From positions 3,121,227 through 3,185,226 of the forward strand of contig NZ_CP101161.1 in NCBI RefSeq assembly GCF_024298865.1: DNA of 64,000 nucleotides, read 5' to 3'. Position numbers and translations under genes: made by a program. Of this stretch, positions 21,498-29,410 are shown one piece after another (position 1 is the first letter of the stretch; every line of letters begins with the position of its first letter). The notes under the pieces were generated by a model. It saw nothing but the letters and a program-made list of their open reading frames with translations, was not told where the DNA came from and ran no database searches. Origin of the DNA: Halorarius halobius. Lineage in GTDB: Archaea > Halobacteriota > Halobacteria > Halobacteriales > Haloarculaceae.

Positions 21498-21572
21498 TGC
21501 TCCGTCAGGGATTTGAACCCTGGTCCTTGCCGTGAGAGGGCAAGATGATTGGCCGGACTACACCAACGGAGC
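21498..21572 (-). tRNA. tRNA-Glu (anticodon CTC)
   Basis: On the minus strand: acceptor GCTCCGT pairs with ACGGAGC with discriminator A. The D arm contains GGTGTAGTCCGGCCAATC. The anticodon stem TTGCC/GGCAA closes a CTCTCAC loop with anticodon CTC. The T arm is CCAGG-GTTCAAAT-CCCTG. Total length is 75 bases with no intron and no encoded CCA. It reads GAG codons. It lies between the oxidase operon and the subtilase gene, on the opposite strand to both. Confidence 0.97.
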
Positions 21573-21743
21573 GCATCCTATCGTTGCGGAGGTTGGTGTA
21601 TAACGGTTGCGCTTCGGCATCGCTGTGGGGTGATTCCGCACGGTCTCGGCGGGGACCTGTTCCCGAACCGGAAACTTATGCCCCGTGGTGCGCTGTCGCT
21701 TCCTGAGAGGCCTCGGGCAAGCCCCCGGGAGCCACCGTCCCTC

Positions 21744-23114
21744 ATGTCCCCCCGCATCGCTCTCGACAGCCGACTCGTGGCGATGGCGGTGCTGGTCGCG
21801 CTACTCGTGGCCGGCATCGGCGTCGCCGCCATCTCGGTCGCCGGGCCGTCGGCGGACAGCCCTGCAGACCCCGCCAGTGCCGCGAACGCGACGACGGACC
21901 TCGCTCCCCTCCACGCGTCGGGCCTCACCGGCGAGGGCGTGGACGTGGCCGTCGTCGGCGTGACGGGGTTCGACACCGACCATCCGGCGCTGGCCGGGCG
22001 GGTCGCGACCGCACGGGCGTTCGCCGACCGCGAGACGCCGGCCAACGGCGGCCGGAACGACCACGGGACGGCCGCGGCGTCGCTGGTCGCCCGCACGGCC
22101 CCCGACGCTGACCTGTATCTCGCCACGTTCGACACCGCGCCGGAGTTCCAGCAAGCGGTCGCGTGGGCGCTCGGGCAGGACGTCGACGTCGTGGTCGCTC
22201 CGGTCGCGTTCTACGGGGCGCCCGGCGACGGCTCCTCGGCGGTCTCGGCGGCGGCCGCGCTCGCGGCGGACAACGGCGCGCTGTTCGTCGCCTCCGCGGG
22301 CAACCTCGGGCGAAGCCACTGGAGCGGGACGTTCAGCCCGGGAACGGACGGCCGCCACCAGTTCCCCGACGGCCCCCGCAACTACCTGCTCGACGGCGAG
22401 AGTCGGCGGCTGGAACTGTGGCTGTCGGCCCCGGAGCGACCGGCGCCGGGGAACATCACGCTCGAACTCCACCGCGTCGAGGGGACCACGACCCGGCTGG
22501 TCGCACGCTCGAAGCCGTACAGTGGCGACGACCTGCCGAACGAGCGCATCGTCGCCCGGGTCGACCCCGCGGGGACGTACTACGTCGTCGTCCGCGGGCC
22601 GACCGAGCGGGCGGGCACCCGCATCGCGGTGTCCTCGCCGACCCACCGCTTCCAGTTCCGCGAGCGTGCGGGCAGTATCGTCGCACCCGCGACGGCGGAC
22701 GCGGCGCTGGCGGTCGGCGCCTACGACCCGACCGACGACCGAGTCGAACCGTTCAGCTCCGCCGGCCCGACGACCGACGGCCGGCGCGGCGTCGACGTCG
22801 TCGCCCCGGACCGACTGCGTGCGGCCGGCGAGCCCGGCGGGCTCGTCGGCTCCTCGGCGGCGGCCCCCTACGCCGCCGGTGTGGCCGCGCTCGCGCTGGA
22901 GGCGAATCCGGAGCAGTCGCCGGAGGCGCTTGCGGCGACGCTCCAGCGGACGGCTCGCGACGCCGGCCCTGAGGGGCCCGACCCCGTCGCCGGGCACGGC
23001 CTCGTCGCCCCACAGCGGGCGGTCGACGCCGCCGGAAACGCCAGCACCGACCACTCAAGCCGAGATTTGAGCTACGGACAGGGCTTACTACGCGGTGGTC
23101 CAACCGGTGAGTAA
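21744..23114 (+). CDS. Subtilase-family (S8) membrane protein with catalytic Asp missing
   Basis: 456 residues from ATG 21744; an AT-rich AAACTTAT about 70 bases upstream is a possible promoter. A signal anchor spans about 11-33. The S8 fold shows His107 (NDHGTAA), oxyanion Asn187 (ASAGN) and Ser371 (GSSAAAPYAAG). In the first motif, where a V-A-V-I-D-T-G pattern is expected, it reads VAVVGVTGFDTDHP (68-81): the Asp is replaced by Gly-Val. A jelly-roll-like insert (about 205-310) resembles a P-domain. It may be an inactive protease relative or may use a different acid. Its 3' end contains the shared 23-bp element of the downstream regulator. Confidence 0.82.
   Translation: MSPRIALDSRLVAMAVLVALLVAGIGVAAISVAGPSADSPADPASAANATTDLAPLHASGLTGEGVDVAVVGVTGFDTDHPALAGRVATARAFADRETPANGGRNDHGTAAASLVARTAPDADLYLATFDTAPEFQQAVAWALGQDVDVVVAPVAFYGAPGDGSSAVSAAAALAADNGALFVASAGNLGRSHWSGTFSPGTDGRHQFPDGPRNYLLDGESRRLELWLSAPERPAPGNITLELHRVEGTTTRLVARSKPYSGDDLPNERIVARVDPAGTYYVVVRGPTERAGTRIAVSSPTHRFQFRERAGSIVAPATADAALAVGAYDPTDDRVEPFSSAGPTTDGRRGVDVVAPDRLRAAGEPGGLVGSSAAAPYAAGVAALALEANPEQSPEALAATLQRTARDAGPEGPDPVAGHGLVAPQRAVDAAGNASTDHSSRDLSYGQGLLRGGPTGE
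23051..23073 (+). promoter_or_regulatory. Copy 1 of a shared 23-bp promoter element (plus strand)
   Basis: The element reads CCACTCAA, seven bases, then TTTGAGCT, and holds a perfect inverted repeat CTCAA-N8-TTGAG. It lies inside the end of the subtilase gene, 46 bases before the ATG of the membrane-bound HTH gene and 22 bases before an in-frame GTG. Gapless copies occur at 26486-26508 and 28261-28283, both on the minus strand in front of surface-protein genes. The TTTnAG part also sits where a TATA box would be expected. Confidence 0.72.
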
Positions 23115-23118
23115 CAGG

Positions 23119-23730
23119 ATGGCGAGCCCGATAGAGCGTCTCCAGAACCGGACCGCGACGCCCGACGAGCGTGCCCGGGTGCTCGAGATGGCCGACGACG
23201 ACACCGACGAGGTGCTCGATGCTCTCTCGTCGGACACGCGCCGGCACGTCGTCCGCGCGCTGTTCGAGGAGCCGGCGACCGCCTCAGAACTGGCTGACAG
23301 TCTCGACACCTCCGTCCAGAACCTCCACTACCACCTCACCGAACTGGAGGAGGTCGGGCTGGTCGAGCCCATCGACACCGCCTACTCCGAGAAGGGCAAC
23401 GAGATGACCGTCTACGGCCCGGCGAGCGACCCGCTCGTGTTTGTCGGCGACGACGACCGGTTCCCGCTCGTCGAGCGGTCGCTGGGCAACGTCGTCGGCG
23501 GGCTGGCGTTGCTGGCCGGCGCGAGCCTCCTGGTCCAGTGGGGCGCCGAGCGACTGCTCCGACCGGCCATCGCCGGAGGGAGTGCGGGCCCGTCGAGCTA
23601 CGGGCCGCTCGACCCCTCGACGACGGGGACGCCGGCCTGGCTCGTGTTCGAGGTGCTGGAACCCGGCGTCGTCTTCTTCGCCGGCTGTCTGTGCATCGCG
23701 GCAGTCGTCGCACTGACGCTTTCCGACTGA
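23119..23730 (+). CDS. Membrane-bound ArsR-like winged-helix regulator
   Basis: 203 residues from ATG 23119; a GTG at 23095 would fit a leaderless start driven by the upstream element. The winged helix covers about 30-100: DEVLDALSSDTRRHVVRALF, then ATASELADSLDTSVQNLHYHLTEL, with the recognition helix near 63-76. Two membrane helices follow (about 122-143 and 176-198), separated by a Gly/Pro/Ser-rich outer loop. The HTH would face the cytoplasm while the protein stays in the membrane. One of the shared 23-bp elements lies in its promoter, so it may control itself. Confidence 0.85.
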   Translation: MASPIERLQNRTATPDERARVLEMADDDTDEVLDALSSDTRRHVVRALFEEPATASELADSLDTSVQNLHYHLTELEEVGLVEPIDTAYSEKGNEMTVYGPASDPLVFVGDDDRFPLVERSLGNVVGGLALLAGASLLVQWGAERLLRPAIAGGSAGPSSYGPLDPSTTGTPAWLVFEVLEPGVVFFAGCLCIAAVVALTLSD

Positions 23731-23810
23731 CGCACGTCGGCGACGCGTCTCTACGGGCCGTCGCGTCGGCCGTCGTTCGAGAGCTCCGGCGATACCGATG
23801 GCGGCCGGCG

Positions 23811-25085
23811 TCAGTCGCCGCCGCCGGTGCGAACGCGGGCGAGGCTCCCGACGACCAGTGCCGCGAGCGCGAGCCACGCGGCGAGCGAGCCGTCGCCGTC
23901 AGTGGGAGTCGACGCTCCCGTGGTCGATGGAGACGGGGGCGACGGCGACGGGCTAGGCTCCGTCCCGGTGCCCGGGTCGGTGTGTGGCGTCGGCGTCGAC
24001 GGCCGCTCCGGCGTCACCGTCGCCGTGGGCGAGGGAGGCGTCGGTGAGCCGTGGCCGTCGCCACAGTCGACTGCACCCACGCAGTGTGCGCCCACTGACT
24101 CGAACGCGTTGCCGGTCGCCGCTCCACCGGACGCCGCACCGCTGGCGTCGATGGCCGCGTTGGTCACCTGAACGAACGTCGACCCCCTGACGCTCCACGC
24201 GCCGGTCGATTCGCCGGCGAACACGGCGGTTCCCTCGGGCCGTGGCGGCATCAGAAAGTCGTACCGCTCGGACTCGCTGAGGTTGTGGAACCGGGTGTCG
24301 ACGACGCTCCAGTTGCCGCTGGTCTCGTAGGCGCTCACGCCGGTGACGCCGTTGCGAACCGTCGAGTCGACGATGGTCCAGTCGCCGCTGGCGTTCTGGA
24401 CCGTGACGGCGACCAGCAACGCGTCGTCGCGTTCGACGCCCGCCGCTCCGGCGACGGTGACGTTCCGGAGCGTCCACGCGCCGGTCGTCGACTCGAGTTC
24501 GAACGCCGTCTCCACGTCGCGGGCGACGCTGTCCTCGACGACCCAGTCGCCGTCCGCGTTGATGGCGGTGACGGCGCTCGAGGCGTTCCGGACCGTGACG
24601 TTCTCCACGCGCCAGTCGCCCCGCGACGACATCGCCATGACGCCGCCGCTGAGCGGCCCTTCGAACGTGGTGTTCCGGACGACCCAGTCGCCGGTCGTGT
24701 TCCAGCCGACGACGCCGTAGAAGAACCCGGAGACGGTGAATCCCGAGACGACCGGCGCCGCGTGACTGCCGCTTTCGACCCGGAACGCGACGTCGCTGGC
24801 CGACTCGCCGGCCCCGGGACCGGGACCGGTGACCGTCGCGCCGTCCGGGGCGACGACGGTGACGTTGTCGTCGAGGCGAACGCCGCCGTCGTAGGTGCCC
24901 GGCCGGACGCGGACGGTGTCGCCGTCGCTCGCGTTTCCGACTGCGGCCGCGATGGTCGCGTAGTCGGCGTCTCCGTCGTCGTCGACGACAAGCACGTCGC
25001 CGCTCGCGGCCGCCGGTGCGGCGACCAGGCCACAGCAGACGAGCGCGGCCACCAGCAGTCCGACGGCGCGGGCCGTGGCTCTCAC
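23811..25085 (-). CDS. Secreted right-handed beta-helix surface protein with C-terminal anchor
   Basis: 424 residues from GTG 25085, preceded by GGAGG ten bases upstream. A signal peptide covers residues 1-28. The region about 30-330 shows the pectate-lyase/NosD repeat pattern: LVVDDDGDADYATIAAAVGNA and DTVRVRPGTYDG at the start, then coils of about 20-25 residues built around GDWVVRNTTF, GDWRVENVTV, GAWTLRNVTV and GNWSVVDTRF. A conserved G-x-W-x-V motif recurs in most coils. A Ser/Thr/Pro stalk (about 340-390) leads to a C-terminal hydrophobic helix with basic residues, but without a PGF tripeptide. Likely an extracellular carbohydrate-binding or structural protein. It converges on the regulator gene. 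Confidence 0.82.
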   Translation of the reverse strand: MRATARAVGLLVAALVCCGLVAAPAAASGDVLVVDDDGDADYATIAAAVGNASDGDTVRVRPGTYDGGVRLDDNVTVVAPDGATVTGPGPGAGESASDVAFRVESGSHAAPVVSGFTVSGFFYGVVGWNTTGDWVVRNTTFEGPLSGGVMAMSSRGDWRVENVTVRNASSAVTAINADGDWVVEDSVARDVETAFELESTTGAWTLRNVTVAGAAGVERDDALLVAVTVQNASGDWTIVDSTVRNGVTGVSAYETSGNWSVVDTRFHNLSESERYDFLMPPRPEGTAVFAGESTGAWSVRGSTFVQVTNAAIDASGAASGGAATGNAFESVGAHCVGAVDCGDGHGSPTPPSPTATVTPERPSTPTPHTDPGTGTEPSPSPSPPSPSTTGASTPTDGDGSLAAWLALAALVVGSLARVRTGGGD

Positions 25086-25235
25086 GGGCCGTCCCTCCGC
25101 GAGCTGGTCGGCGGTCGTTCGGTACGATTCGACTGTCGGTGACGTGTCTGTGTGAACATCTGTCGGGGAGGAGTTCGCGTGGTCGTCTGTCGAAGCGGGG
25201 AAAAAGGGGGTGAGACGGGGCGATTGGCCGCGACC

Positions 25236-26351
25236 TTACGCGGCGGCCACCTCGCCGGGCGCGTACGTCAGTCGCTCGCCGTCGTGGACGACGACGACGC
25301 GGAACTGCGAGCCCTCGTCGACGCCGGACATGTTGTACGCCACCGAGAACGTGCCGTCGTCCGTGACGGTCGCGGACTGCGATTTGAGGAACGGCGACTC
25401 GCCGGAGCCGTGCATTCGGACCGCGACGTGCTGACCCGCGTCGAGGCTCGTGGTGCCGGAGACCGTCTGACCGGTCGCACTCCGGAGCGTGACGGCGTCA
25501 CCCTCGTACTCGAGGCTGGCCGTCTCCGACGGCGCCTCGGTGATGGTGCCGTTCGACCGCGCGAGCGTCTCGCCGTCGTGGATGGCGGCCGCGTCGAACG
25601 TCTGGCCCGCGTCCGTCTCCGAGAGGTTGAACGTCGCGCGGAAGGTGCCGTCCTCGGCGACGGTGGCGTCCTCGGAGAGCAGGAACGGGTGGTCGGAGCC
25701 GGCACTGCGCAGGCGGACCGTCACCGTCGTTCCGGGCTCTAGCGACGTCTCGCCGCGGACGACCTGCTCGGATGCCGCGCGCACCTGTATCTCCTCGCCG
25801 TCGACGGTGACGAACCGACCGTACGGGCCGTCGTCGGTGTCGTCGGACTCACCGCCGTCGGTGTCCTCACCAGCGTCGGCGGAGTCGTCAGTCGAGTCGT
25901 CGGGCGCCGGCCCGGTCGACTCGTAGCCGGCCGTGGTGTTGGCCAGCAGTTCGTCGCCGCGGTAGACGGCGACCTGCATGTCACCGTCGCCCTCGATCGA
26001 CGAGAGGTCGAACGCCACCGACCAGGTGCCGTCCTCGGAGACGGTCGTCTCCGCGGTGAACAGGAACGGGCTGGCGCCCGAGTTCTTCAGACGGACGGTG
26101 AGGTTCGTTCCGGGGTCGAGCGCCGTCTCGCCGCCGATTGTCTGACCGGGGGCGGTTTCGAGCGTCGACTGCTCGTTCGGTCCCGCGGCGAACTGGACGG
26201 GCGCGTCCGACCCCGGGACCGGGGTCGCGGTGGGGCTGGCGGGGCCGCCGTCGGCGCCGGCCTGTGAGGGAATCAGGCCGTACACGCCGACCACGGCGCC
26301 GAGGCCGACGACCGCCGCTAGCGCGACGACCGGGAGCAGGCGACGGTTCAC
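25236..26351 (-). CDS. N-terminally anchored surface protein with three BGTF-like repeats
   Basis: 371 residues from GTG 26351. The start is fixed by a strong Shine-Dalgarno GGAGGTGA just upstream and by a hydrophobic segment beginning at once (about 5-26); longer in-frame extension is rejected. Three copies of an about 80-residue module follow (about 66-142, 187-268, 288-367). Each has GQTxxGxTxLxxGxxVxVR, then a PFL motif, a DGTF strand and a final VxxHDGExL strand, the pattern of haloarchaeal BGTF-type surface domains. An Asp/Ser-rich linker (148-177) separates repeats 1 and 2. There is no C-terminal anchor. A shared 23-bp element lies about 135 bases upstream, leaving a long leader. Confidence 0.8.
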   Translation of the reverse strand: MNRRLLPVVALAAVVGLGAVVGVYGLIPSQAGADGGPASPTATPVPGSDAPVQFAAGPNEQSTLETAPGQTIGGETALDPGTNLTVRLKNSGASPFLFTAETTVSEDGTWSVAFDLSSIEGDGDMQVAVYRGDELLANTTAGYESTGPAPDDSTDDSADAGEDTDGGESDDTDDGPYGRFVTVDGEEIQVRAASEQVVRGETSLEPGTTVTVRLRSAGSDHPFLLSEDATVAEDGTFRATFNLSETDAGQTFDAAAIHDGETLARSNGTITEAPSETASLEYEGDAVTLRSATGQTVSGTTSLDAGQHVAVRMHGSGESPFLKSQSATVTDDGTFSVAYNMSGVDEGSQFRVVVVHDGERLTYAPGEVAAA

Positions 26352-26485
26352 CGCATCACCTCCGTCCGCAGGGAGGGGAGTGGTTGGCTTGCTGTACGGG
26401 GACCGTGCCCCGCGGCAGTACGGGGTGGGCGTCTGACTCTCACTGCATCCGTTCGTAGCGGTGGCACACAAGTAACCCCGACGTA

Positions 26486-26508
26486 AGCTTAAATCCAGAA
26501 TTGAGTGG
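26486..26508 (-). promoter_or_regulatory. Copy 2 of the shared 23-bp promoter element
   Basis: Read on the minus strand it is CCACTCAA, TTCTGGA, TTTAAGCT. Sixteen bases are identical in all three copies without gaps. The TTTAAG part would act as the TATA box. It points toward the BGTF-like gene starting at 26351, with a predicted start of transcription near 26465 and a leader of about 110 bases carrying a Shine-Dalgarno sequence. Confidence 0.75.
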
Positions 26509-26549
26509 TTTCGTGGTCGCTAGCGGCCGTTTCAGACGAGTGAGAGACG

Positions 26550-28190
26550 CTACCGCTCGACGACGCCGGTCAACAGCGAGAGCCCGACGACCGCGAGCAG
26601 GCCACCGAGGCCGAGCGCCCCGAGCGCCGGTAGCGAGAGACGGTCGACCGGCGTGTCGCCACCCGTGGGCGTGCCGGGCGACTCCGCGACGATGAGCGTG
26701 CCGCGGGCGGCCCACAGGTCCGGAGGCGGCTCCTCTCCGGTGGGCACTGTCCCCCGGTACAGCGAGAGGTCGTACTCGCCGGCCGCCAGCGCGCCCGCAC
26801 GCTCGAGCACCCGGACCTCGTCGGCTGGGGCGACCGCCGAGAGCGACACACGGCCGTCCCCGGTCGTCTCGTAGTCGAGACGCACGCGCTCGTCACCGGA
26901 GCCGTCCCGGACCACGGCCCGGAGCGAGTACGCCTCGCCGTCGACGACAACGGTCGCAGTCCGGGACTCGTCGAGACGGAGCGGCAGGGTCGCCGTCCGA
27001 CCACGCTCGACGGTCAGCGGGGTGCGGCCGAAGCCGAACTCGGTCACCGCATCGCTGTCGCTCGACTGTGGGTAGACAACCAGCAGGGCTGGCGTCCCGC
27101 CGGCGTTTGCACCCTGGAACACGGTCAGCGGGTACTCGCCGGCATCGAGCAGGCTACCGTTCGGCGGGAGGGAGGGCGTGCCGCTGATGCGCACCTCGTC
27201 GGAAGGGCCGGCCGCCCCGAGCGCCCGAGAGAGGTTGCCCGCCGCGCCGGTGTCGAAAAGCACCGTGACCTCGCCGTCGCCGTCGCGGTCGACCAGCACC
27301 GCGTCGAACCGGTAGCTCCCGTTCGGCCCGCCGACCGACAGCGTCGCCCGGCCCCTGTCGCCGACCAGAATCGGGAGTCCGACCGTCCCGCCGCGGACGG
27401 TGTCGACGACGCTCCCGTTCCGGTCGACGAACGGCGAGGCCAGGTCGTCGCGGGCGCCGGGCGGTGGCGCGCAGTTCCGCTCGCAGGGCCCGACTCGCAC
27501 GCGCTCGGCGTCGAGCCGGACGCTCCGGAGGTGGACCGTCACGTCGAGTCGGGTGCCGGGGGAGACGCCCTGGAGGTCGGCGACGGCGCGGAACCGCCCC
27601 CGCTGGTCGACGACCGCGGTCGTGACGAGCGGGGGCACGCGACCGGTCTCGGCCGCGAGCCTGACCGTCACTTCGGTGCCGGCCGACAGGTTCGTCCGCC
27701 CGTGGATGGCCTGGCCGGGGCCGGCAGACAGCGTCGCGTTCGGCGCGTACGGGAACAGCGTCGCCGTCGGTCGGCTCGGCGGCGTACGACAGTCGCCGTC
27801 GCAGGCGACTGTCTCGCCCCGGCCGCGCGTGAGTTCCGTGCCGTTGTGCATCACGCGGACGTCGAACGTCGTGGACGGCTGGACGAGCGAGAAGTCGAAG
27901 GTGGCACGGAAGCGACCCGCCGCATCGACCGTGGTCTCGGTCGACTTCAGAAACGGACGGGTCCCCGACGCGCGGAGCATCACCGTCAGTGTCTCCCCCG
28001 GCGGCAGGTCCGTCCGCCCGTAGAGGGCCTGCCCGGTCGCGTTCGCGAGGGTCAGCCGGTCGCCCTCGACCACGAGCGTCGCGTTCCCGTCGGCACTCGG
28101 GGCGTCGGTGCCGGCGGCAGGAGCGACGGCCATCGTTGCGACCGACGCCACTAGGAGCCACGCGACGAGCAGGCGCGCCCCGCCGGTCAC
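26550..28190 (-). CDS. C-terminally anchored surface protein with two BGTF-like repeats
   Basis: 546 residues from GTG 28190, with a GGAGGTG Shine-Dalgarno motif upstream. A signal peptide spans 1-27. Two BGTF-like modules (about 46-128 and 152-235) share the GQAxxGRTxLxxGTxxTVxL and GRFRA patterns with the neighbour. They are followed by two copies of another module (about 250-375 and 390-505), each with a GxxxTLPLxVxxxRxATVxV strand and a final GEYxLxxxxG. Two short cysteine pairs (CDGDC and CERNC) sit after each BGTF-like module. One C-terminal membrane helix (about 520-542) anchors it. It has the shared 23-bp element as promoter, directly behind the HTH regulator gene. Confidence 0.8.
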   Translation of the reverse strand: MTGGARLLVAWLLVASVATMAVAPAAGTDAPSADGNATLVVEGDRLTLANATGQALYGRTDLPPGETLTVMLRASGTRPFLKSTETTVDAAGRFRATFDFSLVQPSTTFDVRVMHNGTELTRGRGETVACDGDCRTPPSRPTATLFPYAPNATLSAGPGQAIHGRTNLSAGTEVTVRLAAETGRVPPLVTTAVVDQRGRFRAVADLQGVSPGTRLDVTVHLRSVRLDAERVRVGPCERNCAPPPGARDDLASPFVDRNGSVVDTVRGGTVGLPILVGDRGRATLSVGGPNGSYRFDAVLVDRDGDGEVTVLFDTGAAGNLSRALGAAGPSDEVRISGTPSLPPNGSLLDAGEYPLTVFQGANAGGTPALLVVYPQSSDSDAVTEFGFGRTPLTVERGRTATLPLRLDESRTATVVVDGEAYSLRAVVRDGSGDERVRLDYETTGDGRVSLSAVAPADEVRVLERAGALAAGEYDLSLYRGTVPTGEEPPPDLWAARGTLIVAESPGTPTGGDTPVDRLSLPALGALGLGGLLAVVGLSLLTGVVER

Positions 28191-28260
28191 GCGTCACACC
28201 TCCGACTCGTCCGCCTGAACATACCTGCCGTTCTTCCGGCCGCCAGTTAGGTCCGCGGGT

Positions 28261-28283
28261 AGCTAAAAGACAGGCTTGAGTGG
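28261..28283 (-). promoter_or_regulatory. Copy 3 of the shared 23-bp promoter element
   Basis: Minus strand: CCACTCAA, GCCTGTC, TTTTAGCT. It begins 2 bases beyond the stop codon of the membrane HTH gene (28286) and serves the surface gene starting at 28190, with a predicted transcript start near 28238 and a leader of about 48 bases containing the Shine-Dalgarno motif. Confidence 0.75.
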
Positions 28284-28285
28284 CG

Positions 28286-29410
28286 TCACTCGTCGTCCTC
28301 GAACGGGGAGCCGGCGGCGTCGGGCTCCTGGCCGGCGATGGAGACGATGTTCTCGCGGCCGACCCGGAGCTTCGATATCTCCCCCTCGTCTTCCATGTCC
28401 GACAGAAGCATCGACACCTTCGATTTCGACCAGCCGGTCTCCTCGACGATGTTGACCTGTTTCATGCGGCCGCCACGCTCCTCGAGCATCCGCATCACGC
28501 GGTCCTCGTCGGAGAGCAGTTCCTCGTCGCTGATGGCGGGTTCGGGGTTCGACGCCGCGGCACCGCCGCCCCCGTCGTCGCCGGTGTCGGTCGTGGCCGT
28601 GCCCCCGCCGAGGGCCCCCGACCGGTACGCGTACGCGGCGCCACCGCCCAGCGCGACCAGCGCCAGGAGCGCGAACACCGGGAGCAGTCCGTCGGGACCG
28701 TTGCCGGCGCCCGGCGTCGACGAGTCGGTGACCGACGGGCTGTCGGCCGTGGTGCCGGTGGTGGCGTCGGCCGGCCCGAACGTCACCCGCGGCCGTTCGT
28801 CGTTGAACGAGCGTTCCCCCTCCCACGTCACCGCGTCCGAGGACGTCGAGGAGGGGTCCGGCTGGGCGCTCGTTATCCTCAGGTTCGGTCCCTCCTCGAC
28901 GACGAACTTCTGGTCGGGGCCGATGTAGAGGCCGTCCTGGAACACGTCGCCGACGACCAGGCTGTCGCCGTCGCTGGCGGCGAACGCCGTCCAGCGGAAC
29001 GACATCCGGACGACCCCGAGGTTGTCCTCGACGCCGGTGCCGGTCGTGTACGCCCGCTTCGAGAAGCCGCGCGCCTCCATCTCGCGGCCGGTGACGTTCG
29101 TGCCCCTGGCCGTCAACTGCTCGGCACGGCTGACGAAGTCCCGGTAGAGTTCCGTCTCGTTGCCGTTGAAGCGGTCGGCGAACGCCTCGAACTGCTGGCG
29201 CTCGGACTCGTTGGCGAGCGTGCGCCGGTACTGGAACGTCCACCGTGCGGATGCGTTCTCGTAGACTGTGATGTGGAACTCCACCTCGTCGAACTCCCCC
29301 TGGGTCGTCAGCGAGGCGCGCGGGTCGTCACCGGCCGCCGGAGCGGCCGCGGACGTGACGCTGACGACGAGGAGAGCGATGACGAGGGCGGCGGACGCCA
29401 GCCGGTCCAT
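28286..29410 (-). CDS. Transmembrane one-component regulator: outer sensor domain, one helix, cytoplasmic winged helix
   Basis: 374 residues from ATG 29410. A signal peptide (1-26) is followed by an outside domain (about 30-210) containing VEFHITVYENASARWTFQYRRTL and VVRMSFRWTAFA. One membrane helix spans 241-262. The cytoplasmic end carries a winged helix (301-358: DEDRVMRMLEERGGRMKQVN, WSKSKVSMLLSDMEDEGEI). This is the layout of a known haloarchaeal membrane HTH family (DUF7345/DUF7343-like). The ligand is unknown. A strong TATA box lies about 27 bases before ATG. It is followed immediately by a shared 23-bp element and the two BGTF-like genes on the same strand, which are plausible targets. 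Confidence 0.87.
   Translation of the reverse strand: MDRLASAALVIALLVVSVTSAAAPAAGDDPRASLTTQGEFDEVEFHITVYENASARWTFQYRRTLANESERQQFEAFADRFNGNETELYRDFVSRAEQLTARGTNVTGREMEARGFSKRAYTTGTGVEDNLGVVRMSFRWTAFAASDGDSLVVGDVFQDGLYIGPDQKFVVEEGPNLRITSAQPDPSSTSSDAVTWEGERSFNDERPRVTFGPADATTGTTADSPSVTDSSTPGAGNGPDGLLPVFALLALVALGGGAAYAYRSGALGGGTATTDTGDDGGGGAAASNPEPAISDEELLSDEDRVMRMLEERGGRMKQVNIVEETGWSKSKVSMLLSDMEDEGEISKLRVGRENIVSIAGQEPDAAGSPFEDDE

Follow-up and report, generated by a model that had tools for sequence, protein, structure and literature searches.

An inverted repeat shared by the promoters of a membrane-type ArsR-like gene and of BGTF surface-protein genes points to a conserved haloarchaeal regulon

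In the 64,000-nucleotide stretch of the Halorarius halobius genome analysed here (the window; contig NZ_CP101161.1), three promoters share a rare, imperfect 20-bp inverted repeat, one of them preceding a gene for a membrane-type HTH protein and the other two preceding genes for BGTF surface proteins. Comparison of these sequences with related genomes gives good support for a real haloarchaeal regulon that has been conserved across genera, and one that is apparently new to the literature. The HTH gene product, encoded at 23119, probably binds the repeat and, somewhat more likely than not, activates both its own promoter and the BGTF promoters, under the control of a signal that would be sensed at the membrane. 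A preliminary description of the locus had read the shared element as the mark of an undescribed regulon for surface genes that includes a membrane-type HTH gene, a reading that is borne out, except for the overlap it had proposed between the element and the TATA region. In the literature that we searched, we found no description of the element, and nothing on HVO_1552 or on the BGTF surface domain.

The repeat and its promoters

Three 23-base copies had been reported in the preliminary description, and all three were recovered at the same positions, on the same strands and before the same genes, each matching 16 of 16 fixed bases. Site 1 (23051..23073, + strand; core 23053-23072) belongs to the promoter of the HTH gene and sits within the 3' end of a subtilase ORF, while site 2 (26486..26508, - strand; core 26487-26506) and site 3 (28261..28283, - strand; core 28262-28281) belong to the promoters of smORF_A/BGTF_A and smORF_B/BGTF_B, respectively. 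A weight-matrix scan of the window scored the three copies at 30.6, 24.3 and 21.4 bits, the weakest being site 3 at 21.4 bits, with no other position reaching 11. By chance, 0.06 matches with up to three mismatches would be expected in the window, against the three perfect matches found. We likewise looked for copies scattered across the whole 4.4 Mb genome, and found none beyond these three, which span 5.2 kb, at up to one mismatch; looser matches number 13 in all, below the 42 obtained with a reversed-pattern control. With a profile trained on relatives, the genome yielded just two hits at E<=10, both at this locus; site 2 is its best match in the genome, and site 3 (28261) falls below the threshold.

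When the 23-base pattern was searched loosely over the family, the output was mostly background and was used for seeds only; together with orthologue promoters, these seeds define the unit as the imperfect 20-bp inverted repeat GSTYAAAnCnnGnTTTRASC. The dyad symmetry proposed earlier is clear when set against shifted axes, with 73% of dyad cells pairing across 46 sites versus at most 58% for any shifted axis, but it is imperfect, and a search for compensatory changes between the dyad arms revealed no covariation beyond composition.

Haloarchaeal promoters carry a TTWT TATA box and a WW -10 element, and their transcripts are mostly leaderless (PMC4983044). In column profiles of 33 BGTF promoters, the repeat occupies positions 0-19, the TATA box 32-36, the WW element 49-50 and the start codon 62-65; in 41 HTH promoters, columns 32-34 are 100% A/T and column 50 is 98% A/T. 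An operator overlapping the TATA box, as the preliminary description had it, was therefore rejected, since in both sets of promoters the profiles place TATA and WW past the repeat, which ends about 12 bp before the TATA box and leaves it uncovered. The same description had expected transcription to start 25-30 bases downstream of the element; because TATA, WW and start codon all lie downstream of the repeat, the start is instead predicted about 40 bp past it, with near-leaderless start codons. Given the fixed spacing of TATA and WW, the repeat is predicted to be centred near -50, upstream of and adjoining the BRE. All three window promoters fit this geometry. By the 41-promoter profile, the HTH promoter (+ strand) has a predicted TATA box at 23085-23089 (TTACT) and WW at 23102-23103 (AA), with a start near 23113. 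On the - strand, the 33-promoter profile predicts TATA at 26474-26470 (TACTT), WW at 26457-26456 (TA) and a start near 26446 for BGTF_A, and TATA at 28249-28245 (TAACT), WW at 28232-28231 (AA) and a start near 28221 for BGTF_B.

Conservation in other genomes

Orthologues of the 23119 gene are present in 41 of 146 family genomes, spread over seven genera, and the repeat lies 65-75 nt before the start codon in every one of the 41, with columns 2, 5, 13, 14 and 17 invariant. Because these 41 sites were chosen as the best matches in a short interval and also trained the profile, independent evidence comes only from loci that are unlinked, that served as controls or that lie outside the family. Outside the training family, in genomes found by a protein search of GTDB contigs, the repeat precedes all six orthologues that are at least 57% identical (four from Halorussus, and those from halophilic archaeon LT46 and Halorubellus), and it recurs at these loci near the start of the facing BGTF gene. 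Most Halobellus orthologues (46-48% identical) have no recognisable site.

In most regulator-bearing genomes, the best matches to the profile fall at the regulator and BGTF promoters. The site was found in 33 BGTF promoters, including the two in the window; some of these sites score low (10-15 bits), and they are often unlinked to the regulator gene, as on one chromosome where the two lie at 0.81 and 5.04 Mb. A recurrent order is seen at the locus itself, namely subtilase, site, HTH gene and then a convergent BGTF gene with a site of its own. As a control, we used the four genomes that have a BGTF homologue but in which no orthologue of the HTH gene passed the threshold (regulator-less genomes); the window's own congener is among them. 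Their BGTF loci had no site of at least 10 bits in the 5-7.5 kb examined (0/4), in comparison with 10 of 10 additional BGTF loci from regulator-bearing genomes, some of them with weak sites (Fisher p = 0.001, a value that shared ancestry weakens without altering its direction). At six other loci, in several genomes, the profile also matched sequence that is distant from all HTH and BGTF homologues; these matches may be further targets or chance. In other genera, related palindromes (TCAAAnCnnGnTTTGA) lie near seven distant HTH homologues (37-49% identical), a hint that the whole HVO_1552-like family may read similar sites.

The candidate regulator and the direction of control

The candidate regulator (23119..23730, + strand) combines an ArsR-like wHTH domain with two C-terminal hydrophobic helices, as judged from Pfam and a structure model. 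It scores above the Pfam cut-off of 27 for both HTH_20 (56.6 bits) and HVO_1552_C (35.7 bits); its score for the metalloregulator ArsR/SmtB subfamily (37.2 bits) falls below the NCBIfam cut-off of 55, and we therefore do not file it as a metal sensor. The winged helix is modelled confidently, and the two long C-terminal hydrophobic helices with modest confidence, at a pLDDT of about 45-76. The recognition helix and the wing show almost no variation. PH1932 (1uly) and Phr (2p4w) are the nearest solved relatives by both sequence and fold. As the repeat is kept across genera before both regulator and surface genes, it is very probably the regulator's docking site, and the 23119 product is the best candidate binder, a strong though circumstantial assignment.

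The preliminary description had put forward two binders, the 23119 product and that of the DUF7343/DUF7345 wHTH gene at 28286. The first tracks the site, which accompanies the 23119 orthologue in every family genome that carries one. The second was set aside as leading candidate because its own promoter lacks the site and homologues of the gene went undetected in most conserved loci; it is likely a neighbour rather than a binder, even though site 3 begins just 2 bp past its stop codon. Reading of the repeat by another protein could also involve a paralogue of the HTH gene, since the genome encodes four further homologues (35-48% identity) and some paralogues in other genera have related palindromes in front of them; the four closest paralogues in this genome, however, lack a nearby site of at least 15 bits, and we regard a binder other than the 23119 product, be it 28286 or a paralogue, as quite improbable. 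The closeness of the three copies, together with the relatedness of the two BGTF genes, might also suggest core promoter sequence (BRE/TATA) or recent duplication with no dedicated regulator involved. This has only the slimmest chance of being right, as TATA and WW are conserved in their own right downstream of the repeat and the site is rare genome-wide, kept in unlinked genes and in other families, and absent from the BGTF loci of regulator-less genomes.

A closer contest concerns the sign of control, as the same regulator acting at the same sites might instead be a repressor that blocks TFB/TBP at the adjoining BRE, is released by a signal and regulates itself negatively. Autoregulated repressors are common, the solved structures closest to it belong to ArsR proteins of the repressor type (e.g. 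Phr, CzrA), and haloarchaea are known to have negative elements that adjoin the BRE, with a phaRP element directly upstream of the BRE cited in PMC6085418. Against repression, the repeat stops short of the TATA box, the TATA boxes are weak, like those of activator-dependent promoters, and GvpE and CsmR sites at the same position act positively. On balance, we somewhat favour activation with autoregulation, and consider repression a possible but less probable reading.

In the favoured scheme, a dimer of the membrane-anchored 23119 product would bind the inverted repeat beside the BRE, both in the promoter of its own gene and in those of the BGTF genes, and in some relatives also in that of the neighbouring secreted subtilase. 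Once bound, it would most likely recruit or stabilise TFB/TBP at the weak TATA boxes and so activate transcription, its activity being set by a signal sensed through the membrane part. The sequences themselves show the conserved site, the layout of its promoters, the linkage of regulator and targets, and the loss of the site where the regulator is missing; binding by this protein, its dimerisation, its membrane insertion, activation as opposed to repression, and the signal are all steps that we infer.

Known systems offer parallels for both the site and the protein. The upstream activating sequences of GvpE, which act positively in haloarchaeal gas-vesicle promoters where they adjoin the BRE (PMC4390858), are similarly two-part elements of about 20 nt at a close, fixed spacing to the BRE, and control the regulator's own operon together with structural, surface-type genes. 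GvpE differs in being leucine-zipper-like, in contrast to the predicted membrane wHTH here, in the sequence of its element, and in that its activating role is proven where that of the 23119 regulator is deduced. ArnR/ArnR1 of Sulfolobus acidocaldarius are membrane-bound one-component HTH regulators of surface-structure genes and act mainly as activators (PMC6396743). The resemblance to ArnR is one of presumed working mode, the control of surface genes by a one-component regulator in the membrane, and we claim membership neither of that group nor of the GvpE type; ArnR, unlike the present candidate, is found in Thermoproteota, targets archaellum and pili genes and is phosphorylated by ArnC (PMC6396743). 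By analogy, then, the regulator may work like an ArnR-type protein that uses a GvpE-like site position. CsmR of Haloferax volcanii, a haloarchaeal regulator whose site acts positively, likewise has an autonomous regulon, and its semi-palindromic site precedes BRE and TATA, but that site is TATCA(N4)TGATA and its targets are motility and shape (PMC13286277). PH1932 and Phr, the closest solved archaeal ArsR-like relatives of the wHTH domain, differ in being soluble and without membrane helices, Phr being a heat-shock regulator. The halolysin gene sptA of Natrinema sp. J7-2, a secreted subtilase gene, also has inverted repeats upstream of its TATA box, both positive and negative in effect (PMC6085418), with no link to a BGTF/HTH locus in the account given there.

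A haloarchaeal counterpart of ArnR with a defined operator would serve well as a model for envelope adjustment in archaea. For an uncharacterised regulator family, the results predict the DNA site that it reads, the genes that it targets and the layout of their promoters, and these predictions can be tested in culturable species with the same locus, such as Haloarcula and Halosimplex.

Surface-protein genes and leader ORFs

BGTF_A (25236..26351, - strand) encodes a surface protein with three BGTF domains, and BGTF_B (26550..28190, - strand) one with two BGTF domains and DUF7827 (Pfam); both exceed the cut-off of 40 for NF045517 halo_surf_dom, at 228 and 114 bits, respectively. BGTF_A was initially taken from the TTG at 26471, a start that we replaced with the GTG at 26351, which follows GGAGGTGAT and comes with a strong Shine-Dalgarno sequence and a signal peptide. 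Next to BGTF_A lies a window gene without a site, for a beta-helix surface-type protein (23811-25085, - strand); its homologue in one Halosimplex genome carries a copy of the site. Directly upstream of the regulator is the subtilase (S8) ORF (21549..23114, + strand; Pfam), a pairing conserved in relatives. Several Haloarcula-type loci have a site for the subtilase as well; the window scan found none for the subtilase here.

Between promoter and surface gene lies a small ORF. In the window these are smORF_A (26348..26443, - strand), of 31 codons with a GTG start, and smORF_B (28187..28222, - strand), of 11 codons, the stop of each overlapping the start of its BGTF gene (GTGA). Among the 33 aligned BGTF leaders, the first start codon opens such an ORF in 28, or in 29 if the 11-codon smORF_B is counted, and in nearly all leaders it lies 64-65 nt from the site. 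Its stop codon shares bases with the BGTF start codon (ATGA/GTGA), which has a Shine-Dalgarno sequence just upstream; lengths in relatives run from 26 to 38 codons, and the layout recurs in most genera outside the training set. In Haloferax volcanii, translation is coupled through overlaps of this kind (PMC6728339), and the small ORF is probably a conserved leaderless leader ORF that is translationally coupled to the BGTF gene.

A more ambitious reading, which we think rather unlikely as a whole, joins the secreted subtilase, the membrane-anchored ArsR-type activator and the BGTF proteins in an envelope circuit, by which protease- or surface-dependent signals would reach the DNA and the leaderless small ORFs would tune output. 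If true, an envelope-signalling module of subtilase, regulator and BGTF protein would be widespread in haloarchaea.

Near the start of the small ORF, CCCTCC (P-P codons) is conserved. A hairpin in which it would pair with the BGTF Shine-Dalgarno sequence found no support, occlusion over 28 leaders being no greater than in shuffles (mean unpaired 0.228 versus 0.227). About 12 nt after the small-ORF start there is a conserved TGCCCTCCA (Cys-Pro-Pro codons), which shows little synonymous change in the Haloarcula-type loci.
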